Assembly (NCBI RefSeq): GCF_000019085.1
Contig: NC_010321.1
Span: 442,501-506,500 of the forward strand
Direction of reading: 5' to 3'
Length of the DNA: 64,000 nucleotides
Source of the DNA: Thermoanaerobacter pseudethanolicus ATCC 33223
GTDB lineage: Bacteria > Bacillota > Thermoanaerobacteria > Thermoanaerobacterales > Thermoanaerobacteraceae
The position numbers and the translations under genes are program-made. This document shows positions 2,041 to 16,480 of the stretch, piece by piece. Below the pieces are notes generated by a model that saw nothing but the letters and a program-made list of their open reading frames with translations, was not told where the DNA came from and made no database searches. Positions within the stretch are counted from its first letter, which is position 1; each line of letters starts with the position of its first letter.

Positions 2041-2169
2041 GAATTGGACGGTAGTAATGGAGAGGAATCCGATTCAAGGCAGAGTATTTTACGAAAAATA
2101 TGAAGTTGACTAGTCAAAATCCAGTACAGTATTAATTTACACATTTTTTACTAAAAGGTAGGGATGTTT

Positions 2170-3456
2170 ATGGAATTTCTAACACCCGGTGAAAGAGTTA
2201 AAAAAATTAGAAAAATGCTCAAAATGAAACAAAGAGAACTAAAATCTGAAAATATTACAAGAGGCTTTATAAGTATGATTGAAAGTGGCAGAAGTACCAT
2301 GAGTAAAGAAACTGCTTCTATTATTGCAGATAAGTTTAATAAAAGAGCTCAAGAGCTGGGTATAGATTTAAATATAGATGGGAATTATCTTTTGATGACT
2401 CCTGCAGAAGAAGCTGAATATTACTGTATTCAAAAGCTAGAAGAAATTAGAAGTTTGGAAGATTTAAACGAATTAAAAGAAATATTTGAAATTGCTGATA
2501 AATATAAAATAAAGAGAGTAACTGCTTTAGCATACGTAAAAATAGGTGATATAATGTATAGTAGTTGTAATTACCAAGACGCATTTACAAACTATTATAA
2601 AGCCCTTGATATATTGCTACTTAATAATATAAAAGACCAATTGCCATATACTTACAACATGTTAGGTGCTTGTAAAGTAAATATGCTAGAATTTTCTGAG
2701 GCAATAATATATTTTGACAAAGCTATAGAATATGCGGACGAAATTAATGCTATTGATATAAAAAATAAAGCGATTTATAACAGTGCTTTGTGTTATAGAT
2801 GTATTGGTCAACCAATTATCGCAATTGATTATATTGATAAATATCTCTCAACTGGGGATAAAGAGAAGGATTTTGTACACTACATATACGCAAATTCAAT
2901 AAAGGCAAACTGCTACAGGGATATGGGAAATTATGAGAAAGCGTTAGAAATATTCAAAAGATTGGTTGGCGAAATAGTTGATGAGGAACATCATTTACTA
3001 GGCTATCTTTATACAAACATTGGAGAAATTTATATGGAGAAAAATAATTTCAAAGAATCTCTAGAATATTTCAATAAGGCTGAGAGAATTAGACGCAAGA
3101 AAGATGAAAATTTACTGGGACACACCTTAATCGAAAAAGCAAATCTCTACATAAAAATGAAATTATATGACGAAGCACGCTCTTTATTAGAAGAAGGTCT
3201 TGAAATATCATACAGAAATAGTGACATAGAATATGTAGTAAAAGGCAGTTACCTTTTGATAGAAGTGTACAAACAGTTAGGGAGTAAACAAGCTATCATA
3301 GAAATATATAAAAAGATGATAGATGTACTTCAAGGCACAAGTAATAAAAAAGAAGTTCTAAAAGTTTACATAGAATTATCACTATTGTATATCGAAGACA
3401 ACGATATAACTAATTCCAGTTATTATTTACAAAAAGCTAGAGAAATTATTAAATAA
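2170..3456 (+). CDS. XRE-family HTH regulator with C-terminal TPR repeats (RRNPP-like)
   Basis: About 428 aa. Residues 1-65 form an XRE-type helix-turn-helix (ERVKKIRKMLKMKQREL ... ISMIESGR). The rest is a chain of tetratricopeptide-like helix pairs with repeated [Y/F]xxAhxhF/Y units, such as NYEKALEIFKRL and NFKESLEYFNKAERI. HTH plus TPR is the layout of RRNPP regulators such as PlcR, ComR and Rgg, many of which bind short secreted peptides. The ATG at 2170 fits the AGGTAGGG ribosome site better than the ATG at 2164. It directly precedes the peptide/ABC/radical SAM genes and probably controls them (inference from position). A peptide ligand is not proven. Confidence 0.82.
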   Translation: MEFLTPGERVKKIRKMLKMKQRELKSENITRGFISMIESGRSTMSKETASIIADKFNKRAQELGIDLNIDGNYLLMTPAEEAEYYCIQKLEEIRSLEDLNELKEIFEIADKYKIKRVTALAYVKIGDIMYSSCNYQDAFTNYYKALDILLLNNIKDQLPYTYNMLGACKVNMLEFSEAIIYFDKAIEYADEINAIDIKNKAIYNSALCYRCIGQPIIAIDYIDKYLSTGDKEKDFVHYIYANSIKANCYRDMGNYEKALEIFKRLVGEIVDEEHHLLGYLYTNIGEIYMEKNNFKESLEYFNKAERIRRKKDENLLGHTLIEKANLYIKMKLYDEARSLLEEGLEISYRNSDIEYVVKGSYLLIEVYKQLGSKQAIIEIYKKMIDVLQGTSNKKEVLKVYIELSLLYIEDNDITNSSYYLQKAREIIK

Positions 3457-3549
3457 AAAAGCAATAAAAAAATAAAAAATATATTGTATTTTTATTTTTT
3501 ATGTTAAAATAAAATCAAACGTTTAACTAGTAATTAAAAAGGAGGGGTA

Positions 3550-3807
3550 ATGAAAATGATAAAAAAACTTAAAGCATTACTCACATTAGTGATAGGAATT
3601 ATTCTTTTTACATATATGGCTGTTGTAATTCCATTTGAAAATCCTCCTGTCTGGGTTATATGTCTTTCATGTGAATTACTTCCTTTATGCGGTGGCGGTT
3701 GCCCAGGGTTAATATTCGATAGATATGGTACATTACAAGAAGTTGATCCTCGTTGTTGTAGGAGGAAAAACAATGAAACCCCAAATAATCGTCAAAAATG
3801 TCAGTAA
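3550..3807 (+). CDS. Small membrane peptide with SPASM-like cysteine tail
   Basis: 85 aa behind a strong GGAGGGG site; the in-frame ATG at 3556 is an alternative start. Residues 8-30 are hydrophobic (one membrane helix or signal). The second half has CLSC, LPLCGGGCPG and DPRCC, a pattern very like the C-terminal cluster-binding SPASM/twitch motif of radical SAM maturases, but no radical SAM core is present. The last 35 nt overlap the following ABC gene, whose ribosome site lies in this frame. It may be a modified-peptide precursor, a small iron-sulfur protein, or an in-frame deletion joining a peptide gene's start to a maturase's end. I cannot choose between these from sequence alone. Confidence 0.6.
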   Translation: MKMIKKLKALLTLVIGIILFTYMAVVIPFENPPVWVICLSCELLPLCGGGCPGLIFDRYGTLQEVDPRCCRRKNNETPNNRQKCQ

Positions 3808-4759
3808 AACTTATAAAGTATACATAAAAGAAAATGGCATGATAAATGCAGTTAAAAGCTTTTTCAATCGTAAATACAAATACATACAAGCAGTAAAAGA
3901 CATTTCTTTTACTGTAAATCAAGGAGAAATACTTGGACTAATTGGTCTTAACGGTGCTGGAAAAACTACCACAATTAAATTGGTATCCGGCATAATTAAA
4001 GCAGATAAAGGTATTATAAGGGTATTAGGAAAAGACCCATTTTTACGCTCCAAAGAGTATAGAAATAAAGTATCATTAGTAATGGGACAAAAAGGGCAGT
4101 TAGATCCAGACTTATCCATCATTGATTCTGTAAAACTATTTGCCTCTATTTATTCTATTGACAAAAAAGAAGCAATTTCTAGGACAAAATCTATGGCAGA
4201 AGAACTTAACTTGTCAGAAATAGACCTGCAAAAACAGGTCAGAACTCTGTCTTTAGGACAGAGGATGAAAGGTGAATTAATATTATCTTTTATTCATCTG
4301 CCAGTAATCGTTTTTCTTGATGAACCTACACTAGGATTGGATTTCATCACCCAAAGGGCTATTAGAAATTACCTAAAAAATTATAAAAAGAAATATAATG
4401 CATCCATAATACTCACAAGCCACTATATAACTGATATTGAGGATTTATGCGACAATATATACATACTGCATAAAGGACATGAGCTCTACTATGGAACAAT
4501 TGACAAATTAAAAAGCATGGTACCTAATATAAGAAAAGTAAGGTTTAATGCAAGTAATTGTGCCATTGAAAGAATCAGTAAATATTATAAGGTAGAAAAG
4601 GCAGATGAAGAACAAGAATACTTCATAAGGTTTAACCCTCATGAGACGATAAATGTAATGAAAATCTTATCAAATGAAATTGAAGTTTCAAATATAAATT
4701 TTCATGACGATACTCTTGACATAATAATAGAATCATTATATAAGGGTGCAGAGAAATGA
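3773..4759 (+). CDS. ABC exporter ATP-binding protein
   Basis: 328 aa. The start ATG follows AGGAGG by 7 nt; an upstream ATG at 3725 lacks such a site. Walker A is GLNGAGKTT, the Q-loop region VMGQKGQLDPDLS, the signature LSLGQRMKGEL, Walker B VIVFLDEPTLGLD and the H-loop LTSHY. The protein resembles the ATPase of the COG4586/4587/3694 ABC-2 exporter trio, and its two permeases follow with overlapping reading frames. Substrate unknown. The context of radical SAM enzymes and a small peptide suggests export of, or immunity to, a modified peptide (inference). Confidence 0.9.
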   Translation: MKPQIIVKNVSKTYKVYIKENGMINAVKSFFNRKYKYIQAVKDISFTVNQGEILGLIGLNGAGKTTTIKLVSGIIKADKGIIRVLGKDPFLRSKEYRNKVSLVMGQKGQLDPDLSIIDSVKLFASIYSIDKKEAISRTKSMAEELNLSEIDLQKQVRTLSLGQRMKGELILSFIHLPVIVFLDEPTLGLDFITQRAIRNYLKNYKKKYNASIILTSHYITDIEDLCDNIYILHKGHELYYGTIDKLKSMVPNIRKVRFNASNCAIERISKYYKVEKADEEQEYFIRFNPHETINVMKILSNEIEVSNINFHDDTLDIIIESLYKGAEK

Positions 4760-5550
4760 AGACTTTGTATACTTTCATGGGATATTTTGAGTACTCAATA
4801 AAAAAGCTCCTGATGTACAGAATCTACATTATAGGAGAACTTCTAAGTTCATTAATCGTGCCGGTTATAATCAGTTTCTTTCTTTGGAGGGCCTTGATTG
4901 AAACAAACCCTATAAACTACAGCTTAAAAGAAATGATGATTTATATAATAATTTCCAATATAATACTTTTGTTTACACAGATCCACGCTGAACATGACAT
5001 TGAAAGAGATATAAAGACTTATAGACTTGGTCAAAAACTTTTACTGCCTATAGATTATCTTACAAGTATTTCATACAGTTACTTAACCTCAAGCCTTGCT
5101 AAATTTACAATTGTATATCTTCCTATAATTGTTATAATTTCAATTTGGGCAAAGATTGAGATTCCGGCAAACCGCCTATTATATCTACCTATTACATTAA
5201 CTTTCGGCTTTTTACTCAATGCTTTATTTTCCTTTATAATAGGCTTATTATCCTTTTGGCTGACAGAAATATGGGGTATAGCTGCTGTAAGAAACTTACT
5301 GACAGGACTTTTCTCAGGTGCTATTTTTCCTCTAGACCTTTTACCTAAGAAAGTAGAATCATTTATGCTACTTACCCCTTTTCCATATATGACCTTCATA
5401 CCTGCAAAACTCATAAGTGATGATAGCTTTGATATTAAAATAGTGAATAAAGGATTATTTATTTCTCTAATCTGGGTGTTAATACTTGGTTTAATTGTAT
5501 TTTTACTCGTAAAAAATGGGCTAAAAAAATACACCTCTCATGGGGCGTGA
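4756..5550 (+). CDS. ABC-2 type exporter permease 1
   Basis: 264 aa with about six hydrophobic segments and no cytoplasmic enzyme domain. It resembles the COG4587 permease that partners COG4586 ATPases. The start overlaps the ATPase stop by 4 nt (ATGA), which implies translational coupling. No substrate-specific motif is visible. Confidence 0.85.
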   Translation: MKTLYTFMGYFEYSIKKLLMYRIYIIGELLSSLIVPVIISFFLWRALIETNPINYSLKEMMIYIIISNIILLFTQIHAEHDIERDIKTYRLGQKLLLPIDYLTSISYSYLTSSLAKFTIVYLPIIVIISIWAKIEIPANRLLYLPITLTFGFLLNALFSFIIGLLSFWLTEIWGIAAVRNLLTGLFSGAIFPLDLLPKKVESFMLLTPFPYMTFIPAKLISDDSFDIKIVNKGLFISLIWVLILGLIVFLLVKNGLKKYTSHGA

Positions 5551-5554
5551 AAAC

Positions 5555-6316
5555 ATGCTAATTGAATCTGTAAAATTTTCAATTAAAAAAGCAATTCAAT
5601 ACAGAGCAAATTTAATCAGCTGGTTTTTGGCAGACCTATCTTTATACACTGCAATATTTTTAGGTTATTATCTACTTACACAGAGAATTACTGTCTTTGG
5701 CGATTACAGGAGGGAACAGATTCTTTTTTACATAACCTGTTTCTTTTTAGTAAACAACATATATGCTATCTTTTTTGCAGAAGCAGTTTCTAAATTTGGT
5801 CAGTCTGTTTTAACAGGATACTTTGATTTTGATTTATTAAAACCTCAGCCTCTCATAAAATACATTGTACTAAAAAACTTAAATTTCCCTGCAGCTCTTT
5901 CAACTCCACTGTTAATATTTCTAAATATATACTGTCTGAAACTATGTGGAATTAAATTGACAATACCTTATATCATTTCTATTTTTAGTGCTTCTATTTT
6001 AATGGGACTTTTATTCTTTATAGTTTACAGTTTCACTCTTTTAGGTTTAAGGTCTGAGGCAATTTCAGCAATAGTCCTGCAGCTTTTAACAATGGCAGAA
6101 AAACCCGATACAGTTTTTCCAAAAATCCTCCGCAATCTTCTCATATATGCGATTCCCATTTTCTTATTTAGTGCAATTCCTGCAAGGATTGCCCTTGGTA
6201 AGAGCAGTATATATGAAAATATATGGTGTTATTTATCCCCCTTACTATATTATTTGGTTTTAAAAATTATCCTTTGCCAAGGGCTGAAAAAATACCAGTC
6301 AGGAGGAGAATTATGA
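5555..6316 (+). CDS. ABC-2 type exporter permease 2
   Basis: About 253 aa, six predicted membrane helices, similar to COG3694 permeases that pair with COG4587 proteins. I prefer the ATG at 5555, which has a GGGG-containing site upstream; the ATG at 5540 overlaps permease 1 and has no ribosome site. The C-terminal frame runs straight into the ribosome site of the next gene, so these form one operon. Confidence 0.83.
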   Translation: MLIESVKFSIKKAIQYRANLISWFLADLSLYTAIFLGYYLLTQRITVFGDYRREQILFYITCFFLVNNIYAIFFAEAVSKFGQSVLTGYFDFDLLKPQPLIKYIVLKNLNFPAALSTPLLIFLNIYCLKLCGIKLTIPYIISIFSASILMGLLFFIVYSFTLLGLRSEAISAIVLQLLTMAEKPDTVFPKILRNLLIYAIPIFLFSAIPARIALGKSSIYENIWCYLSPLLYYLVLKIILCQGLKKYQSGGEL

Positions 6317-7512
6317 ACAAGATTTTAGAATATTTAAAATATTGTAAACACAGTAATATTATTTTAACTGGAGGGATGAAGATATTTGATACTATAACAG
6401 AATATTACATTGAAAAAGGAATTCAACCCTCATATCCTCTATATCTAAGCTTATCTGTTACATCAATGTGCAACGGACAGTGCCTTTTATGTAGCTCTGA
6501 ATCTAAAAAATTTTGGAGTGGGGAGATTGATAAGGCGAATCCTTTGTTAAAGAAACGCCTAGTTGAATTGTCAGAGAATAATCCTCCGGTTGTTTTCATT
6601 TTATCAGGTGGAGAGCCATTATTGTTTCCAACCAGGTGCAAGGAATATTTAGAAATTTTTTACGACACAAGTGTAATATTTGGGCTTTTTTCAAATTTAG
6701 CTTTGGATCTAGATTATAAACGATTAAAAATAGTAGAAATTCTTGAAGAAAGACCTTTTTCTTTCATACAAACAAGCATTGATAGTATTGACAAAAATGA
6801 ACATGAGCTGTTAAGAAAGGGTACAAATTTGGCTGTTATTCTAAGTAACATAAAGTATTTAAAGAGGAAAAATATAAAAATAAAAGTAAATACAACTATT
6901 TCTCCATATAATTATAAAAGTATAATGGATATTGTAAAGTATGTATTTAATGAAGGGATTGAAAGCTTACATATTAATCCGGTTCTCCCTTTTGGGCGAG
7001 CAAAAGACAAAATTGATGAAAGATTGTGTATTGAGATTGTTGATGCGTTGATAAAGGTAGTAAGCAGCAGGGAGTTTAATAATATTAAAGAGCATTCAAT
7101 TACATTTCCAAGTGAATTAATTCCGTTATCTTATATTGGTTCTAAATATGAAGATATTTTAGAAGTTTATGATAACAGTAAAAAAATGAAAAACAAGTTT
7201 CTGAGCCATCAATTTGTATGTGGCATTTCCCATGAAAATTGCACATGCGGTATAGGGTGGTTTCCAGAGATTTATATTTCGCTCGAAGATAAAAAAATAG
7301 AGGAAGCTTTCCGTATAGCTCTTTCCTATGGCAAAAAATATTATTACGCTACGTGCGAAAAATGCTACCAATATTATAATTGCGACTTTGAATCATCTTA
7401 TACAGGTAAATGCTTAATGATGGAACTATACAACAAAATAGAATATATACTTAATTATAATACACCACTGTCAGAGGAAGAATCTATAAGAAGAAAGTGT
7501 TTAATGAATTAG
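6313..7512 (+). CDS. Radical SAM enzyme 1 of the peptide-like island
   Basis: 399 aa; ATG preceded by AGGAGG 6 nt away and overlapping the permease stop by 4 nt. The [4Fe-4S]-SAM motif is CNGQCLLC (CX3CX2C) near residue 54, followed by LSGGEPL. The C-terminal third has further cysteines (CGISHENCTCG, then CEKCYQYYNC), consistent with auxiliary cluster ligation as in SPASM/twitch enzymes, though not the canonical seven-cysteine pattern. It probably modifies a peptide or small molecule exported by the preceding transporter (inference). Substrate and reaction cannot be read from sequence. Confidence 0.85.
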   Translation: MNKILEYLKYCKHSNIILTGGMKIFDTITEYYIEKGIQPSYPLYLSLSVTSMCNGQCLLCSSESKKFWSGEIDKANPLLKKRLVELSENNPPVVFILSGGEPLLFPTRCKEYLEIFYDTSVIFGLFSNLALDLDYKRLKIVEILEERPFSFIQTSIDSIDKNEHELLRKGTNLAVILSNIKYLKRKNIKIKVNTTISPYNYKSIMDIVKYVFNEGIESLHINPVLPFGRAKDKIDERLCIEIVDALIKVVSSREFNNIKEHSITFPSELIPLSYIGSKYEDILEVYDNSKKMKNKFLSHQFVCGISHENCTCGIGWFPEIYISLEDKKIEEAFRIALSYGKKYYYATCEKCYQYYNCDFESSYTGKCLMMELYNKIEYILNYNTPLSEEESIRRKCLMN

Positions 7513-8513
7513 AAGAGATAAGTAAAGGAATGTTTGAAGTAATTATTGGAATGACAAGAGAATGTAATGGAAATTGCAATTTCTGTCAGGTTGGGGGGCC
7601 ACAAAGAGATATCAATAAAAGGTTTGATTATAAACAACTGGTTAGGTTTTTAAAAGGAAATAATTATCATATACAAATAACAGGTGGCGAACCTTTAATT
7701 AGAAAAAAAGAACTAGCTCCATTGATTCAGGATCTCAAAGAAGATGGTCATATGATAACTTTGTTAACAAACCTAGTTCTTATCGATAAGAAGTTTATTG
7801 AACTCTTAAAAGAATCATTTTCTATATTAGATGTGGTTCAGGTTTCTATTTATGCACACAATCCACAACTTCATGAGATTATAAGTGGAAGAAATGATTG
7901 GAGCAAACTAAACGCTTTAATCACAGAGCTTATTAATAATGGTATTCAATTGAGAGCAAACTTGACTTTAACGAAAGAAAATGTAAGATATATTAAAGAA
8001 ATTTATAATTTTTACAAATCTCTGGGGGTGAAACAAATATCAATAAGTAGTCTTATTAAAAAAGGGAGAGCTTTTCATTTGGTTGACGAAAAGTATATCT
8101 ACGACTACATTTATTATATGTACGAATTCCTCGAAAAAAACAATCCTAAATTTATAACAATTTCGATACCTATTGAACTTCTCAAAACTTATTCAAATAT
8201 AAAAAGTAATTTTGGACATTATGTAAAAAATGACAACTTAATAGTTTTAGAGAAAGACAAATTATATATTCATTATGATGGAAATGTTTACTCATTGCTA
8301 ACAGGGAAATTAATTTGTGAAATTTCTGCAAATAATGCAAAGAACATAGTCATTCCTCCCTTAAAACGCAACTTGTCTAAGTCAGAGTGTGCTAGGTGCC
8401 ATGCTTTTTATCTTTGTAAAGGTCGTGAAGATTTCGAATTAATAAGAGCTAAATACGGAAACTTGAATTTTTCTCAGTGTGATTTAGAATTAGAGAATAT
8501 AAATGTACTTTAA
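7497..8513 (+). CDS. Radical SAM enzyme 2 of the peptide-like island
   Basis: 338 aa from a GTG that overlaps the end of radical SAM 1 by 16 nt; the ribosome site is weak (AAGAAAG), which suggests coupling. An ATG at 7530 is a less likely start. The cluster motif is CNGNCNFC near residue 23, with TGGEPLIRK behind it. The C-terminus has CARCHAFYLC (CX2CX5C), like part of a SPASM domain. It differs clearly from enzyme 1, so the pair is not a recent duplication. A two-enzyme maturation step acting on one product is plausible but inferred. Confidence 0.83.
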   Translation: MFNELEEISKGMFEVIIGMTRECNGNCNFCQVGGPQRDINKRFDYKQLVRFLKGNNYHIQITGGEPLIRKKELAPLIQDLKEDGHMITLLTNLVLIDKKFIELLKESFSILDVVQVSIYAHNPQLHEIISGRNDWSKLNALITELINNGIQLRANLTLTKENVRYIKEIYNFYKSLGVKQISISSLIKKGRAFHLVDEKYIYDYIYYMYEFLEKNNPKFITISIPIELLKTYSNIKSNFGHYVKNDNLIVLEKDKLYIHYDGNVYSLLTGKLICEISANNAKNIVIPPLKRNLSKSECARCHAFYLCKGREDFELIRAKYGNLNFSQCDLELENINVL

Positions 8514-9065
8514 TATTCTTATTTAAAATACCATAATTGGTAGTACATTACTATTCCAAAGACAGCAAGGGGAAATTGACCTATTATCCTGTTAATAGAA
8601 AAAACATTATATCAAGATAAGATTAAAACTTATCTAGTTTTCATAAAGAGACTCTGATTAACTTTGATTTTACATTTAAGCCTTGCAGTGATAAAAATTA
8701 ATAAAAAGTTTACAACAAAGAACTTTGTTTATTGCACAGAAAACGTAATATTCCTTAAATACCTCGGGTGAGAAGGCACATTTTCCTGTAGAGATCCTCT
8801 CCAAAAGAACATCAGGTTTAAAAGGTCATGAAAGAATAGCTCATGAAAGTAGATGAGGAACATCCTTAGATCATGACTTGTTATTTGACGAAGTAGAGAA
8901 CTATCTTGCTTTAAATACCTCGGCTGTTTATGTAAGACTAAAAATACTCCCAGTGTTAGTGTAAAATTTCAGTAGGTGACAATGCAGGAAAATGAGGTAT
9001 GAATATAGAAAAAAGACCTCACCGGGAAAAACCAAAAATCAAATCAAAGGAAGGCGAGGTCTGAT
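8514..9065. other. AT-rich gap without a recognisable gene
   Basis: I see no supported ORF here. Short inverted repeats occur (GATAAG/CTTATC near 8618-8636, ACAAAG/CTTTGT near 8713-8727). From about 8990 it runs into the left flank of an ISLre2-type element, seen by the repeated GAGGT(C/A) blocks. It looks like debris of earlier insertions. A very short precursor-peptide gene cannot be excluded. Confidence 0.5.
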
Positions 9066-9340
9066 ATGTTATTAGATATTGACACATAGTGGGTATAATC
9101 CTGCTTTTTATTCAAGGTTTAATGAGAATAATAAGGGAGAGTAAAGATTTTTATGAACTGGAGAAAGGGATACATGAACTTACACAAAAAGTATCAAGAC
9201 AACTTCTTGAGTGGGCAGCAGAAGAGATGGATAAAAAGTTGATGGAAGACCGAGGCAAAAGAGTGTGGGAAGTAGTAGGATTTAGAGCGAAGCAGGTAAT
9301 AAGCATTTTTGGGGAATTCACATATACAGAAGTTTGCTAG
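9066..9340 (+). pseudogene. ISLre2-family transposase, N-terminal remnant
   Basis: ATG at 9066 opens MLLDIDT and stops at once. A shift of frame near 9087 (two extra bases) continues as VGIILLFIQGLMRII, then DFYELEKGIHELTQKVSRQ and KVWE/VWEVVGFRAKQV-like sequence up to GEFTYTEVC. This is the start of an ISLre2 (UPF0236) transposase, normally about 450-480 aa; everything after residue about 90 is missing. The cut end joins a radical SAM remnant, so a deletion probably fused the two. Confidence 0.75.
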
Positions 9341-9341
9341 A

Positions 9342-9623
9342 GGACACCTCTTCAATCTTGATATCGAGATTACTACTCTTTGTAATCTTGCTTGCCAAAC
9401 GTGCTACAATGAACCAATTCACCCACAAGTTATGACAGTGGAATAGTTTAATCGTATTTTGCCAGATGCACGGCAACTTATAGAGTGTTTGGAGATGGAT
9501 GGGCTTTGGCTGACGATTTCTGGGGGAGAGCCGTTGACAAATGGCCACATATGGGACATGCTTCAGCTGGCTCAAGGGCAGGACTTTAGAGGCATTGCAA
9601 TTATCACTATTTACTTTCGTTAA
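9342..9623 (+). pseudogene. Radical SAM protein remnant with internal stop
   Basis: Read in the frame of position 9333, the DNA encodes GHLFNLDIEITTLCNLACQTC and then YNEP, a perfect CX3CX2C radical SAM cluster motif. An in-frame TAG at 9444-9446 interrupts it, after which LTISGGEPLTNG (the GGE motif) appears before the frame ends at TAA 9621-9623. Only about 90 codons survive of a protein that should have 300 or more. It is the third radical SAM gene of the island and is clearly dead. Confidence 0.78.
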
Positions 9624-10525: not shown

Positions 10526-10683
10526 TAAGATTATTGCGGAAGTAGTCTACAAGATCAGAAATTTGCCGAATTTTTCAGCCTGCATAAAGATAAAAGCTCT
10601 AAACATTGTATCATAAGAATAACCTTTACGGCCAGGACCAGAGGAAGGGAATTCAGGTATTGAAGACAGGTCAAGATTCAAGA

Positions 10684-10953
10684 ATGGAGGGTGAAAAAAT
10701 CTTGTTAAGCAAATATGTAATTAAAATACCAGTAGATAATAAAGAAACTCTTTTGTATAATTCAATTACTAAATCTTTAATATCTTTGCCTACTTCTAAA
10801 GAAGATGTAGAAATATTTATTAAAAAATTGAACCAAGAAGAATTACAATATTTAAGTAAAGAATTATACTTACAATTTGATGAAATAAATGAAGAAAAAC
10901 TTGTGGATTTATGTCAATATGGGAGTGAAAAATATTTTGTGTATTTAGATTAA
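10684..10953 (+). CDS. Orphan N-terminal domain of a radical SAM/SPASM maturase
   Basis: About 89 aa: SKYVIKIPVDNKETLLYNSI then a helical stretch and the end EKYFVYLD. The opening pattern (SKYxhxh ... LLYNSxTxxLhxL) is typical of the N-terminal domain of RiPP-modifying radical SAM/SPASM enzymes, just before their CX3CX2C motif. Here the frame stops where the cluster motif should begin and nothing of the core follows. It could be a remnant or a free-standing peptide-binding domain. The start is ATG 10684 or TTG 10702; the latter has GGAGG at a long spacing. Confidence 0.5.
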   Translation: MEGEKILLSKYVIKIPVDNKETLLYNSITKSLISLPTSKEDVEIFIKKLNQEELQYLSKELYLQFDEINEEKLVDLCQYGSEKYFVYLD

Positions 10954-11157: not shown

Positions 11158-11816
11158 CTATAAGTATTTTTCAAGTCTTCCAGGATACATTATGATTAAT
11201 TGATTTAATACTATATCCCAGTTTTTATACCTCACTGTCCATTTCTTTAATACATTCATTGTTACTAAGTATAGCATTTTTTCTAATGCTTCATCAGATG
11301 GAAATATTGTTTTTGATTTTGTAACTTTCCTTAACTGCCTGTGGAATCCTTCAATTATGTTTGTTGTATACATTATTTTCCTTACTTCTTCAGGGAATTT
11401 GTAAAATGGACTTAATACATCCCAGTTATTCTCCCAACTCTTTATGGCATAAGGATATAGATTCTGCCATTTGTTTTTTAATTTCTCAAATTCATCCCTT
11501 GCTATTTCTTCATTAGCTGATTGATATACTGCTTTAAAATCTTTACTGAATTCTTTAAGGTGTTTATATGACACATATTTGAAGCAGTTCCTTAATTGAT
11601 GTATTATACATCTTTGTATCTCTGATTTTGGAAATGCTGCTTGTATTGCTTCTTTTATCCCTGTTAATCCATCTACAGAAAATACTATAACATCTTCTAC
11701 TCCTCTGTTCTTTAGCTCATTTAATACTCCAAGCCAGAATCTTGAACTCTCATTTTCTCCAATCCAAATCCCTAATACATCTTTTATGCCTTCTATCGTT
11801 ACCCCTAATACTACAT
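11158..11816 (-). pseudogene. IS256 transposase, C-terminal part (split by insertion)
   Basis: Codes for VLGVTIEGIKDVLGIW, WLGVLNELKNRGVED, a catalytic region with FSVDGLTGIKEAI and TTNIIEGFHRQLRK, as in Mutator/IS256 DDE transposases. It lacks the N-terminal half, found 3.2 kb away at 15031-15595. The start codon-like MRID lies in the inserted element. Joining the halves at the single copy of CTACAT gives about 405 codons in one frame, the normal IS256 length. Confidence 0.85.
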
Positions 11817-11999
11817 TGTCAATTCTCAAATTAAATCTCCAAAGATTTTCAAATTATAATGGCATTTTTTAAGTGCATAAAAGTATTTTTTCTCAAATTA
11901 TCACAGCCTGATTAAAAATTTTTTTCACTTTTTAAGAGCATAACCGCCAAAATATGTTAATATCTGTTATTGGCAATTTGGGTTAATTGAAGTATAATA

Positions 12000-12032
12000 A
12001 AAAATGAGAGTAGCGAAAGCTACTACTCTCAT
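12000..12032 (-). terminator. Terminator of the transposon operon
   Basis: On the minus strand ATGAGAGTAG pairs with CTACTCTCAT and is followed by ATTTTTTATT. It overlaps the stop codon of the ATPase gene. Confidence 0.75.
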
Positions 12033-12829
12033 AAACTGATTTCATTTTGTGCCTGGTATATTACTTCTTCATCTATTTCTCTTAGCCTTTTAGAATACGC
12101 ATAGAGAAGAGAAGCCGTTACCAGGTTATTTATTATCCTTGGCAGCCCTTTTGTTAGAGAATATATTGCTTCATATGCCGATGGTGTAAATATATCATCC
12201 ATCACTCCAGCTATTTTCATTCTTGTTTTTATATAATCTTGAATTTCTTCTTTTTTTAGCCCTTGCATTACATACTTTATAGAAATTCTTTGCCTTAGTG
12301 CACTGTTTACATTCAAGGCTAGTTTGTTTCTTATGTGTGGTTGTCCTGAAAGTATCAGTATATACGGGTTTTGAGAATCCATATTAAAGTTAAATATTAT
12401 TCTCAAATCTTCAAGAACATCATTAGAAACCAGTTGTATTTCATCTAATATTATGACAGGAGTTATCTTCTGGCTATAGTAAAGTTCTGTTATCGCTCTT
12501 TGTATCTGGTGAAAGAGCGTTACTTTTTTGTATGAGGGGGTTTCGCCTAAAATCATAGCCAATGCTTGATAGAATTCTCTCACTGTGAGTGTAGATAGAG
12601 CAAAGTAACATGGTTTAAATGTAGAACGGTTGAGGCTTTCAGCATATCTTCTTAATGCGGTAGATTTGCCTGAACCCGCCTCCCCAACGATAAGTCCTAT
12701 ACCCCTTGTTTCTTGTAAATATTTTAGCCTGGCATTTAATTCAGCAATGTCTTCACTTATATAAAGGTCATTTACACTTATCTCTTTAGAAAATGGATTA
12801 AATTTCATTCCAAAATATTGGGTAAACAT
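12029..12829 (-). CDS. Transposition ATPase, TniB/TnsC/ExeA-like AAA protein
   Basis: 266 aa. The start MFTQYFGMKFNPFS follows a GAGGTG site; the family often opens with YFGhxxxPF. Walker A is GEAGSGKST (residues about 46-54), Walker B VIILDEIQLV, with a sensor LSGQPHIRNKL and a winged-helix-like C-terminus. Such ATPases select target DNA and activate a partner DDE transposase, here encoded just upstream with an overlap or very short gap. Not an IstB-type IS21 ATPase, which is DnaC-like. Confidence 0.85.
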   Translation of the reverse strand: MFTQYFGMKFNPFSKEISVNDLYISEDIAELNARLKYLQETRGIGLIVGEAGSGKSTALRRYAESLNRSTFKPCYFALSTLTVREFYQALAMILGETPSYKKVTLFHQIQRAITELYYSQKITPVIILDEIQLVSNDVLEDLRIIFNFNMDSQNPYILILSGQPHIRNKLALNVNSALRQRISIKYVMQGLKKEEIQDYIKTRMKIAGVMDDIFTPSAYEAIYSLTKGLPRIINNLVTASLLYAYSKRLREIDEEVIYQAQNEISL

Positions 12830-12845
12830 TGTAAACACCTCTTTT

Positions 12846-14171
12846 TTAATCAATGATATCATTAAAGGATATTACTGGGGGATTAGGTTTTGCAGCAAAA
12901 TCCACAGTATCTTCATTTTCGCTTACAACCTTTCTGTCTTCGATATATTCTACAGGAATTTTAGCATTCTCATGAAAATTTACCTTATACGCTTCCCCTA
13001 CTTTTTTGCCTTCATGAAAAAGTAAAAGGGGTGTATTATCCTTAAGCCACTGCGGGTCATATCTGACTTCTAAGCGCATACCTTTAAACTTTTCTTCTGT
13101 TTCGTAAAGTATATTTTCCACTTTAAGTGTGGCATCTTTGTTTACTTTACGATTTACTCTTATGAGAAAACATTCATTCAACATATCTATGTCACCACAC
13201 ATATTTACCCTTGATATTTGAGACATGAAAAAATCTAAAGGACTCATGCCAATACTGCTATGTTCTTTTCGGTTGTAATCATCCTCCAGCCATTTAAAAA
13301 ACATCATATTGAGCTCATCTATACTCTTTATGGATGTAGGATCTATTGTGCTTAAAAATCTCATTCTCACCGTATGAAAGAATCTTTCTATTTTCCCTTT
13401 TGAATGAGGTGAAAAGGGCTCAGCATGAATAAGAGATGTACCTAATGATGCACATATATATTCAAATTGAGTGCTTCTATATATCTTTCCATTGTCAGTG
13501 TAGAGCATTTTGGGTATTCCCCTTCTTAGCACTGCTTCTTTAAATGAGTCTCTTAAAGCTAAAAAATTCTGGGTATAGTAAAAGCGAGCATAGGTACACA
13601 GCCTGGAAGCATCATCTATATATGCAATAAGGTACGTTTGTCTCTTTGTTTTACCTTCTTTAATATATGGCCCATACATGACATCAGTCTGCCACAGTTC
13701 ATTGATGAATTCATGGGAAAATCTCTTTGTTTTACCCTCTTTTTCTTTATCTAAAGATTTTACAGGAATGTTTTTCAAAAACCTATAGAATGTCGAAAGG
13801 GATACTTTATCCGGTGAGATTATTCCTTCTCCTATCAATGTCTCATAAAGAAGTTTGTTTGGCATTTCAGGATGTTCAAGCTTTTTTTGCTTTATTTTCT
13901 CTGAAAGTTCAAAGTTTATCTTTCTGTATTTGCCTCTGTCGCTTCGATAACCCGGCTTTAACGCTTCTATACCGCCTCTTAAATACTGATATAGCCACCC
14001 TCTAAGTGTCTTGGGAGTATATCTTCTCATTCCAAGATAAGGTATCTCAATAGGTTTATCGGAAAGAGCATCAAAATATTCTTTCTGATTTTTTACCTGT
14101 CCGTTTAGCACCGGACTTATCAGTGAAAATCTCTTTAATGCTATAGCTTCTCTCGCTTTTTCATCAAGCAT
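12846..14171 (-). CDS. DDE transposase, rve/Mu-type integrase core
   Basis: 441 aa. An N-terminal HTH (residues about 15-75) precedes an rve-type catalytic core with the triad in WQTDVMYGP, LYTDNGKIY and SKGKIERFF (D, D, E). A basic Mu-transposase-like C-terminal region follows. The ribosome site is GGGGGAAC upstream of the ATG. Together with the ATPase it makes a two-component transposition machine like TniA/TniB. All catalytic residues are present, so it may be active. Confidence 0.87.
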   Translation of the reverse strand: MLDEKAREAIALKRFSLISPVLNGQVKNQKEYFDALSDKPIEIPYLGMRRYTPKTLRGWLYQYLRGGIEALKPGYRSDRGKYRKINFELSEKIKQKKLEHPEMPNKLLYETLIGEGIISPDKVSLSTFYRFLKNIPVKSLDKEKEGKTKRFSHEFINELWQTDVMYGPYIKEGKTKRQTYLIAYIDDASRLCTYARFYYTQNFLALRDSFKEAVLRRGIPKMLYTDNGKIYRSTQFEYICASLGTSLIHAEPFSPHSKGKIERFFHTVRMRFLSTIDPTSIKSIDELNMMFFKWLEDDYNRKEHSSIGMSPLDFFMSQISRVNMCGDIDMLNECFLIRVNRKVNKDATLKVENILYETEEKFKGMRLEVRYDPQWLKDNTPLLLFHEGKKVGEAYKVNFHENAKIPVEYIEDRKVVSENEDTVDFAAKPNPPVISFNDIID

Positions 14172-14307
14172 TTATATGTTCCCCCTTCACTTTTTTGATT
14201 TCTTAATCGTAATTTTAGCTCATACCTGGGGGACATTAAAGGAAAAAGTTATGTTGCTAAGAAAAAATCAAAATTTTTATTTAAATCTTTCGGATTTAAT
14301 GCTAAAA

Positions 14308-14889
14308 TTATGTGAGAGAGGCCAGAAATGATTTTTGGCAATGAGCATAAAACCGTTGGGAAAAGAGTGGTACAATGCTTATTATGTCCAAAATCTCTCT
14401 GGCCCTCTCTCTTTGTGAGTCAGTCTCAGATAACTTTATGTAAGGGTCTATTTGCCTTAATCCGTATATGATAAAACTTAAATTATTCATTATCCTTTTG
14501 GTGTAAAAATATATATGCTGTCTTGAAAATAGTATGGTGGGAAAGTTTCTTTTTAAGTCACTTATGAAAGAACTGAGAGTTTTTTCTCTTGTAAGTGTCT
14601 CTTTTAAAGACTTTACAATCATATTGAAAGAATACTGAAAATGGGGAAGACAGAAATCAGGAAGGTAGGAAAGAGTTCTTTTACACACAGGACATATATA
14701 TCTTCTTATGGCTATTTTTATACAGTTAGGTCCATCTAAATAGTAACGGTAATAAAACCCGTGCTTTTTTAGTTTTACTCTACACTTGCAATCGGGATAA
14801 GGACATCTATCTGGCGGGGCAGGGAAATTGTAATCTTTGCCCTTTCGTAAATACTCTTCAATGTTATCAACATGGAAAACTATTTGCAT
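14308..14889 (-). CDS. Transposon-encoded cysteine-rich protein (DUF6431-like)
   Basis: 193 aa; the ATG at 14889 has GGAGAGG upstream, unlike the TTG at 14904. The N-terminal half has a zinc-finger-like set: CPYPDCKC and, 35 residues on, CPVCKRTL. The rest is helical and basic with no catalytic motif. It lies upstream of the transposase in the same direction and inside the element's ends, so it is part of the element. From memory it resembles DUF6431 proteins that accompany such transposases; its job is unknown, perhaps DNA binding or target choice. Confidence 0.6.
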   Translation of the reverse strand: MQIVFHVDNIEEYLRKGKDYNFPAPPDRCPYPDCKCRVKLKKHGFYYRYYLDGPNCIKIAIRRYICPVCKRTLSYLPDFCLPHFQYSFNMIVKSLKETLTREKTLSSFISDLKRNFPTILFSRQHIYFYTKRIMNNLSFIIYGLRQIDPYIKLSETDSQRERAREILDIISIVPLFSQRFYAHCQKSFLASLT

Positions 14890-14906
14890 AAGTAACCTCT
14901 CCAATT

Positions 14907-14965
14907 AAAATTAATGCTAAAGGAATCTGAAAAAAATTTTTTTAAATTCCTTTAGCATTAATTTT
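14907..14965. repeat. 20-bp perfect inverted repeat near the transposon right end
   Basis: AAAATTAATGCTAAAGGAAT (14907-14926) is repeated exactly inverted at 14946-14965. It lies between the small gene and the transposon end. It may be a regulatory hairpin in the leader of the small gene or a transposase binding array. A related word TAATGCTAAAATTA occurs at about 14299. Confidence 0.7.
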
Positions 14966-15030
14966 ATCACAAGATTATTTAATCTGAAAAATTTTATCGG
15001 TTTTGGGCTAAATTAATTTGAGAAATGACA

Positions 15031-15595
15031 CTACATAAGCTGCTCTATTGATAATATGACCGTCTGTTCTTACTTTGTAATGGATGGCATCCATAAATAT
15101 GAAAGTGTATATCTTTTCTAATGGCCTTGATTGCCATTCTTTTATTTCTGGTACTATTCTTTCGGTTATTTTGCTTACCATTTCTGCAGATAGTTCTATT
15201 CCATACAGGTCTTTTATCTGGTCATGAATATCTCTTGTTGACATTCCTCTTGCATATAGAGCTATTACTTTTTCTTCAATTCCTGATATGTCTCTTTTGT
15301 ATTTTGGAACTATTTTAGGTTCAAATTCTCCTTGTCTGTCTCTTGGAATATCAATTTCCATCTCACCAAATTGAGTTTTTACCGTCTTTTGAGTATAGCC
15401 ATTTCTTGAATTTTGAGTATCTTTGTCTTTTTTGTCATATCTTTCGTAGCCAAGTTCTGTTGAAAGTTCTGCTTCAAGCATTTCTTGAATAGTATCTTTA
15501 AAAAGGTTTTTTAATGATGTATAAAGGTCTGGAATAGATTGAATATTGTTTTCACTAATGAAATTTCTTAATTGTTCTTTTGTCAATAGTGACAT
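15031..15595 (-). pseudogene. IS256 transposase, N-terminal part (split by insertion)
   Basis: ATG behind GAAGGAGG opens MSLLTKEQLRNFISEN; then ELSTELGYERY, SRNGYTQKTVKT and IDIPRDRQGEFEPKI, all classic for IS256 transposases, up to INRAAYV. The reading frame then enters the inserted transposon and stops there. The C-terminal part is at 11158-11816. Confidence 0.88.
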
Positions 15596-15687
15596 TTTTA
15601 AAACCTCCTTCTTGGTTTTGTATATATTCTAATTCTTACCAAGAAAGAGGTTTTTAATCAGTTTACACAAAATTTTTTACAGTCTCT

Positions 15688-16480
15688 ACCAAGATTCAAT
15701 ATACTCAAATATAGCAAGTCTGGCAGTATCAAAATCATGGTAAGTAGCTAAATTTACTTCTTCCTTTTTTAAAGAAGCATGAAAAGATTCTATACATGCA
15801 TTATCATAAGGGCATCCTTTGTGACTAAATGAGTGTTTTATGTTACCTTTGGATAATATATATTCTTGAAATTTGGTGCTTGTATACTGTGAACCTAAAT
15901 CACTATGGAGTATAAGCTCTCCCTGTGGCTTTTGAGTATTATAGGCATTTTCTACAGCACGAATAGCAAGCTCTGTATCCATCGTTTTAGAAAACGCATA
16001 GCCAATGACTTTCTTGGTATAAAGATCTATTACTGTCGCAAGGTAACACCATTTATCCTTAACAGTATAAATATATGTTATATCAGTAACCCACTTTTGA
16101 TTAATCGTAGTGGTAGAAAAATCCCTATTTAAAATGTTTTCTCTTTCTTCTACTCTGTTGCTAGAACTGTAAGGTTTAAACTTTTTGATAATTATAGATT
16201 TTATACCTAATTTATTCATAAGTCTTTGGACTCTTTTAAGACTTATATTATAGCCTTTATTTACAAGCATTTTGTGAATTTTGGGAGCTCCATAACGCTT
16301 TTTGCTTTCTTCATATATCTTCATTATTTCTTCCTCATACATCCTGTTTTCTCTACTCCTTTTGCTTTCTGTTTTATGAAGATACTTATAATAGGAGCTC
16401 CTTGAAACTTTTAAAACTTCACACATTAATTTAACATCATGATATTTTTTATTTTCCTCAATAAACTCAAATATAGAGTT
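15688..16480 (-). pseudogene. IS3-family transposase OrfB, 3'-truncated
   Basis: The frame begins before the visible ATG at 16426 and would be reached from orfA by frameshifting. It shows RYGAPKIHKML, the rve core with WVTDITYIY and LHSDLGSQY (two catalytic D) and CIESFHASLKKEE (E). It ends at YIESW where IS256 starts; the usual YNRKRIHSSIG end is missing. About 30 residues are lost, so the enzyme is probably inactive. Confidence 0.82.

Follow-up and report, generated by a model that had tools for sequence, protein, structure and literature searches.

In Thermoanaerobacter pseudethanolicus ATCC 33223, we analysed a stretch of 64,000 nucleotides (positions 442,501-506,500 of the single-contig genome of 2,362,816 bases), which we will call the window. 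Near its start is a locus of seven open reading frames (ORFs), all on the + strand within 2164-8513 (Table 1). These encode a regulator with helix-turn-helix (HTH) and tetratricopeptide repeat (TPR) domains, a small protein, the ATPase and two permeases of an ATP-binding cassette (ABC) transporter, and two radical S-adenosylmethionine (SAM) proteins, which we will call rSAM1 and rSAM2. We propose that it probably arose by deletion from a radical SAM locus under pheromone control. The evidence for a quorum module is good and the modification-and-export cassette is plausible, while it is doubtful that this copy makes a finished compound. Because the pheromone gene is fused to the tail of an enzyme and no precursor is left, we expect no finished product.

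Five neighboring frame pairs overlap, by 4 to 35 bases each, and the sole intergenic gap is the 93 bases downstream of the regulator, which contain a promoter. That homologous long frames occur in this order is not due to chance. An earlier sequence-only reading had described a row of seven genes with overlaps or short gaps, including an HTH-TPR regulator, an ABC exporter, and two radical SAM enzymes, and our frames and Pfam matches confirm this. It had also proposed a quorum-controlled modified-peptide locus. This proposal is partly supported. An RRNPP-like regulator with a pheromone-type small ORF is supported, and we found homologous pairs in another species of the genus as well as two types of them in a sister genus. 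A role of the small ORF as the precursor of a modified peptide is not supported.

Table 1. Features of the locus, in window coordinates
Feature	Position	Strand	Evidence
RRNPP-type receptor/regulator, HTH + TPR, 430 aa	2164..3456	+	Pfam HTH_19 1.8e-12, TPR_12 1.6e-25
Candidate operator, imperfect palindrome AGCAAT-N17-ATTGTA	3460..3488	+	Alignment of homologous promoters; function inferred
Peptide-gene promoter	3484..3510	+	-35 TTGTAT (3484-3489), -10 TAAAAT (3505-3510), 15-base spacer; sequence comparison
Small ORF, pheromone pro-peptide part, MKMIKKLKALLTLVIGIILFTYMAVVIPFENPPVWV	3550..3657	+	Intact 35-aa peptides (G000:898 kb; G005:C30) are 50-56% identical
Small ORF, C part from a lost radical SAM gene, SPASM tail (ICLSCELLPLCGGGCPGLIFDRYGTLQEVDPRCC...)	3658..3807	+	TIGR04085 2.3e-5; overlaps ATPase start
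ABC transporter ATPase, 328 aa (from ATG with Shine-Dalgarno)	3773..4759	+	ABC_tran 1.8e-23
ABC-2 permease 1, 264 aa	4756..5550	+	ABC2_membrane_6 (PF06182) 3.6e-17
ABC-2 permease 2, 258 aa	5540..6316	+	ABC2_membrane_6 (PF06182) 1.5e-62
rSAM1, 399 aa, CNGQCLLC, C-terminal CEKCYQYYNC	6313..7512	+	Radical_SAM 1e-12
rSAM2, 338 aa, CNGNCNFC, C-terminal CARCHAFYLC	7497..8513	+	Radical_SAM 6.7e-17

The small ORF and its two sets of relatives

The small ORF encodes 85 amino acids, starts 93 bases downstream of the regulator, and has no match in Pfam. By eye, its KK and the hydrophobic stretch that follows resemble an export tag. The first 36 residues match short frames in this genome, at G000:898,038, and in a second species, at G005:C30:148,229. 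Both of these frames are 35-aa peptides that end in ...IPLENPPIWVG-stop. At the nucleotide level, these peptide genes and the window have the promoter block and the stretch that encodes ENPP in common, and they diverge immediately after it. In G005, the peptide gene lies directly downstream of the remnant of a regulator that is 69% identical to the window regulator. An E[ND]PP motif is common to the window pro-peptide and the peptides of the sister genus. The copy at 898 kb (L009 8042-8149) is an intact orphan pheromone gene, MRGKLKVLLTSLILLAYVYGAFILIPLENPPIWVG; a transposase gene upstream of it has apparently replaced its regulator.

The rest of the small ORF has different relatives. Residues 37-69 match the end of the SPASM model TIGR04085 (24.7 bits, with a cut-off of 27; only positions 60-93 of the model's 93 are covered). 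The next-best NCBIfam models are all radical SAM peptide maturases, and they too are matched at their C-terminal ends. When we searched 299 genomes of the phylum with this C part, nearly all of the best matches were inside open frames of 280-550 aa. We checked nine of the top matches, as well as two from another search: they lie 35-65 residues from the C-terminal end, in proteins with CxxxCxxC. The C part is also similar to the tail of a maturase from the sister genus (type A, described below), with 34% identity (E = 1.2e-5) and the same spacing of cysteines.

Since each half has its own relatives, homology switches partner at codon 36/37 (base 3657/3658). These comparisons indicate that the small ORF is a chimera of two unrelated parts, an RRNPP-type pro-peptide and, in the last ~38 residues, the cysteine tail of a SPASM radical SAM enzyme. 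Given the likeness to the type A tail in cysteine spacing and identity, the simplest origin would be a deletion with one endpoint in the pheromone gene and the other near the end of a neighboring SPASM gene, which left the pheromone gene attached to the 3' part of a maturase gene that is now lost. The window copy illustrates how such loci decay. A pheromone gene that is fused in frame to an enzyme tail mimics a novel cysteine-rich precursor, which is a trap for genome mining.

The sequence-only reading had called the small ORF a tiny membrane peptide. The origins of the two halves do not support a role as precursor. We had also considered the small ORF as a cysteine-rich precursor and set this aside as our first choice, as each half has its own relatives. 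In a version of this idea, the whole 85-aa product would be a genuine RiPP (ribosomally synthesized and post-translationally modified peptide) precursor, with the hydrophobic N-terminal half as the leader and the cysteine-rich C-terminal half as the core, and it would be modified by rSAM1 and rSAM2. The ORF is where a precursor would be expected, it has a good Shine-Dalgarno sequence, it is intact and in frame, and it is the sole such small ORF of the operon. But the C-terminal half is a SPASM tail by its sequence, its cysteine spacing, and its position in the homologs, and the homologs of the N-terminal half stop before the cysteine region. Also, the full-length 85-aa form is found in no other genome. 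We consider this explanation very unlikely.

We did not find an intact precursor peptide gene in the locus. Between 3400 and 8600, the chimera is the only + strand frame of 12-90 aa with a Shine-Dalgarno-like sequence, and downstream of rSAM2 there is just one frame of 14 aa, at 8576, besides pieces of frames within decayed genes.

The regulator, its candidate operator, and loci in the sister genus

The regulator's matches to HTH_19 and TPR_12 exceed the Pfam cut-offs. Its top match by sequence in the Protein Data Bank (PDB), using phmmer, is NprR (4gpk, 6.2e-11). An AlphaFold2 (AF2) model of the regulator has a mean predicted local distance difference test score (pLDDT) of 88.6, and the VIA-align comparison of this model ranks NprR first (5dbk; Z 26.3, root-mean-square deviation 7.5, 343 aligned), in a tie with unrelated TPR proteins such as LGN. 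The domains, the NprR sequence match, and the paired pheromone-type small ORF support the earlier assignment of an RRNPP-like regulator.

Orthologs of the regulator (49-57% identity) are found in six other genomes of the family, from the sister genus, and a search of the whole phylum found none beyond that genus. A comparison with a split copy in G007 gives a ratio of nonsynonymous to synonymous substitution rates (dN/dS) of 0.06-0.10, with dS near saturation, which indicates that the regulator has been under purifying selection. A second family of HTH-TPR regulators (MVCKKMDGFYYDLEAF...) is encoded near cassettes with radical SAM/SPASM and S41-peptidase-like genes in the same genus (L011, L012, L015, L071).

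To compare promoters, we aligned eight of these peptide promoters and assessed each palindrome against 300 dinucleotide shuffles. The promoter and palindrome block is common to such peptide genes in two genera. The consensus palindrome is TGCAAT-N16/18-ATTGCA, and its right arm overlaps the -35 box (TTGCAT). It is perfect in five of the eight promoters and is equalled there by at most 3 of 300 shuffles. The window's palindrome has two mismatches, a score that 5 of 300 shuffles reach; G005's also has two, and 29 of 300 shuffles reach it. The palindrome of the 898-kb copy is at chance level in this test, though the DNA block that forms its right arm and spacer is the same one. The bare palindrome (TGCAAT-N13/19-ATTGCA) has several matches in every genome that we scanned, many of them without a visible link to such loci, and we could not define a regulon. 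This exact form misses the window site. As the palindrome is common in these genomes, the case for an operator depends on its position and not on its rarity. The regulator presumably binds it.

The related loci in the sister genus have two layouts. Type A (L061, L063, L065, and L066 in part) encodes a 44-aa peptide (...IPLEDPP...), a very short ORF, a 384-aa SPASM radical SAM protein, a 91-aa PqqD-like protein, a major facilitator superfamily (MFS) transporter, and a regulator that is 56-57% identical to the window's. The SPASM enzyme (PF13186, 4.1e-10) is intact in L063 and interrupted in the others; its tail is KCNKCKIFNMCMGGCRAYAYYTTGFLNGFDNRCW. The match of the 91-aa protein to PqqD (2.3e-4) is just below the cut-off. 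By its gene content, the type A set is a RiPP-like cassette. The very short ORF (MKKSPIIRQMVVGCDNVH, 18 aa), which lies between the pheromone and SPASM genes and has a strong Shine-Dalgarno sequence (L063, oriented 4149-4259; also L061, L065, and L066), is possibly a minimal precursor.

Type B (L069, L072, and L055) has the regulator first and then the peptide MKKNILKAIGFVLIFISLSTLVIKIKTYEDPPSIGLNVVITKNVM. In L069, downstream of this pheromone gene of the same family, the next gene encodes a secreted cysteine protease of the C70 (AvrRpt2-like)/C39-like kind (PF12385, 1.4e-10; oriented 7567-8133). Across the sister genus, the peptides beside orthologs of the regulator carry "...PLEDPP..." or "...YEDPP...".

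Does the fused gene still act as a pheromone gene? If proteases freed the ENPPVWV region from the longer product, then the quorum circuit could be functional in this strain. The fused gene has kept its promoter, an operator-like site, the Shine-Dalgarno sequence, and the PP-W motif, the regulator gene is intact and (by comparison with G007) under purifying selection, and QspB of Clostridium acetobutylicum is active despite seven extra residues after its conserved core (PMC7376267). However, the extension in the window is 49 residues instead of 7. The promoter is weaker than those of the homologs, with a 15-base spacer and TAAAAT where they have TTGCAT-N16/17-TATAAT, and a separate intact peptide gene is present at 898 kb. 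We regard a working pheromone from the fused gene as rather unlikely. The circuit might be fed by the intact gene at 898 kb.

The ABC genes and the radical SAM pair

Five further species of the genus also carry the three ABC genes, with 88-97% identity for the ATPase. At the threshold that we used, the trio is absent from the other genera of the class, and a search with permease 2 (E = 1e-25, in a sample of 398 genomes of the phylum) found it in this genus only. In G007, both permeases read as one frame. The ABC genes are under purifying selection, with dN/dS of 0.06-0.20 (0.06-0.10 for the ATPase). In none of the five species is the window's pheromone module directly upstream of the trio, and the upstream DNA differs right up to the Shine-Dalgarno sequence. 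Homologous loci without a conserved small peptide had been named in advance as evidence against the modified-peptide interpretation. The five species partly provide this evidence.

These observations also raise the question of whether the trio belongs with its neighbors at all. It could be a stand-alone exporter for drugs or immunity that recombination beside the rRNA operon placed by accident downstream of the pheromone module and upstream of the radical SAM genes. This would explain its presence in five species without the module directly upstream, with different upstream DNA and under purifying selection, and in G002 the trio is in the same rRNA/tRNA neighborhood. On the other hand, the Shine-Dalgarno sequence and start of rSAM1 (GGAGGAGAAATATGAAC) follow permease 2 in G007, where broken remains of rSAM1 are visible, and in G005, which has kept nothing of rSAM1 beyond this start. 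So, the trio has been linked to rSAM1 more than once. This implies that the linkage is old and predates this genome, and that the enzymes were lost repeatedly. We regard an accidental placement of the trio as rather unlikely.

The two radical SAM proteins are 25% identical over their cores. As the earlier reading noticed, both have unusual sets of cysteines at their C-termini: each has Cys-x2-Cys-x5-Cys and, in the alignment, lacks the fourth SPASM cysteine, which makes for an incomplete SPASM-like set. Neither protein has the standard set (Cx2Cx5Cx3C...C), and neither has a listed match to TIGR04085 or to SPASM in Pfam. In an AF2 model of rSAM1 from a shallow and distant alignment, the core is confident and the C-terminus is unusable.

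Within the class, the only other homolog of rSAM1 is the broken copy in G007, and we found no relatives at 1e-22 in 398 genomes of the phylum and none in plasmids. rSAM2 has no match elsewhere in the class at E = 1e-15 (37 genomes), and a wider scan of genome contigs found one weak match, at 26% identity, in a metagenome-assembled genome from Muribaculaceae.

Both proteins are below the cut-off of every curated family in NCBIfam. The best match for rSAM1 is the heme b synthase AhbD (2.8e-15), and both proteins also match the models for NirJ, viperin, and W_rSAM_matur. The pair could thus belong to a known non-peptide pathway (AhbD/NirJ-type synthesis of heme or heme d1, a viperin-like reaction, or a tungsten cofactor) and have no relation to the quorum module. 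We think this quite unlikely. All of these scores reach only some 10-25% of the curated cut-offs (for rSAM1, 56.6 vs 500 bits for AhbD and 51.0 vs 500 bits for NirJ; in another of these matches, 43.7 vs 180 bits) and reflect the radical SAM core that all such enzymes share, and the operon contains no other gene of such pathways. The His-Xaa-Ser pair (HxsB/HxsC) is not a match either: rSAM2 scores 66.4 bits against HxsC, with an equivalog cut-off of 267.9 bits. None of the seven proteins of the locus matches PqqD. A PqqD-like RiPP recognition element (RRE) is present in the loci of the sister genus and is common, but not obligatory, in clusters for radical SAM RiPPs (RaS-RiPPs).

Most likely, the locus is a switch in which a receptor and its pheromone control an exporter and two radical SAM enzymes, and it would work as follows. 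The receptor would occupy the palindrome, which extends into the -35 box in front of the peptide gene. The pro-peptide would be exported, trimmed to a short peptide around E-N-P-P-x-W, re-imported, and bound in the TPR groove. The bound peptide would switch the operon such that rSAM1 and rSAM2 modify a peptide (or another small substrate), and the ABC trio would export the modified product or protect the cell from it. DNA binding, peptide sensing, the substrate of the enzymes, and the role in export are all predictions of this scheme. In this strain, a deletion would have left the first 36 codons of the pheromone gene fused, in frame, with the 3' end of an otherwise lost SPASM maturase gene. 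The true precursor was probably lost together with the maturase gene, and the promoter is weaker. For signalling to work in this strain, the fusion product would have to be cleaved internally, or the signal would have to come from the intact orphan gene at 898 kb.

Sequence comparison establishes the gene content, the homology of the peptides, the fusion, and the linkage. Several points weigh against the proposal. We found no intact and complete version with the ABC genes and rSAM1/rSAM2, so the lost maturase gene is deduced from its tail alone, and the deletion itself was not observed. The SPASM match of the small ORF is just below the curated cut-off (24.7 vs 27 bits). A sequencing error at the fusion is possible, as this is the assembly of one strain only. 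Finally, we infer both the binding of palindrome and peptide by the regulator and the action of rSAM1 and rSAM2 on peptides. It is also conceivable, but highly improbable, that the fusion is a working hybrid, with the enzyme tail now part of the signalling or precursor peptide, and that rSAM1 and rSAM2 form a RiPP-modifying pair of an undescribed kind, in which the second Fe-S domain is reduced and which acts on the pheromone-derived peptide itself.

The locus is flanked by the end of an rRNA operon and six tRNA genes on the 5' side and by decayed genes and transposases on the 3' side. A series of transposase-like genes on the - strand (window 11158-16426, typed by eye only) suggests a recombination-prone site beside the rRNA operon. 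The region 9309-9623 holds the decayed remains of a radical SAM core (CNLACQTC, GGEP), interrupted by an in-frame stop near 9444, and adjoins a fragment of a UPF0236 transposase (9089-9340). A 115-aa ORF at 10606-10953 has no family match; by eye only, it looks like the N-terminal portion of a radical SAM peptide maturase.

Comparison with known systems

RRNPP_detector looks for an adjacent gene for a pro-peptide of 10-100 aa with an export signal (PMC10075063). The 85-aa ORF has these properties (the export tag by eye only), and its intact homologs of 35-51 aa are beside or near related regulators, while the window copy is a fusion. The operon also has the radical SAM enzymes and the transporter that are expected of a RaS-RiPP cluster. 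The published screen reported 196 candidate RRNPP-controlled biosynthetic clusters, and its list of families does not include Thermoanaerobacteraceae (PMC10075063). In the papers that we searched, RRNPP and Thermoanaerobacter are not mentioned together.

The Qsr/Qsp pairs of C. acetobutylicum have precursors of 39-50 aa with conserved L, P, and W near the C-terminal end, and the active heptapeptide is AEPTWGW (PMC7376267). In Qsr/Qsp and in NprR/NprX, as in the window, an HTH-TPR receptor gene stands directly before a short gene whose product is an exported hydrophobic pro-peptide (35-50 aa), with proline and tryptophan (and leucine) near the C-terminal end of the peptide. AEPTWGW and the window's ENPPVW have a similar Pro-x-Trp pattern. 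Unlike in those systems, the window's ORF is 85 aa and runs into a SPASM tail, it has its own E[ND]PP motif, and the cargo is an ABC transporter and two radical SAM genes.

Streptococcal Rgg/SHP RaS-RiPP clusters (wgk/tryglysin, PMC8092268; reviewed in PMC13361665), some subfamilies of which have two radical SAM enzymes, also combine a peptide-sensing RRNPP receptor and a peptide gene with radical SAM and transporter genes. In contrast, the window has no separate precursor gene and no RRE/PqqD gene, the receptor is different, and the radical SAM proteins are far under the cut-off for WgkB (38-50 bits vs 650).

The SPASM loci of the sister genus (L061, L063, and L065) share an orthologous regulator, a PLEDPP pro-peptide, a similar promoter palindrome, and the cysteine spacing of the tail. 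They differ from the window in having an MFS instead of an ABC transporter, a PqqD-like gene, no orthologs of rSAM1 or rSAM2, and a regulator gene that comes last, not first.

Radical SAM clusters under quorum control are already a known kind of system. The papers that we consulted do not appear to describe the receptor-peptide family, the orphan enzyme pair, or the way in which cassettes are exchanged. To the known systems, these loci add a pheromone-receptor family of thermophilic anaerobes whose members have a promoter palindrome and an E[ND]PP peptide motif in common. The receptors adjoin exchangeable cassettes: a SPASM enzyme with PqqD and MFS, a secreted C70-like protease, or ABC with rSAM1 and rSAM2.

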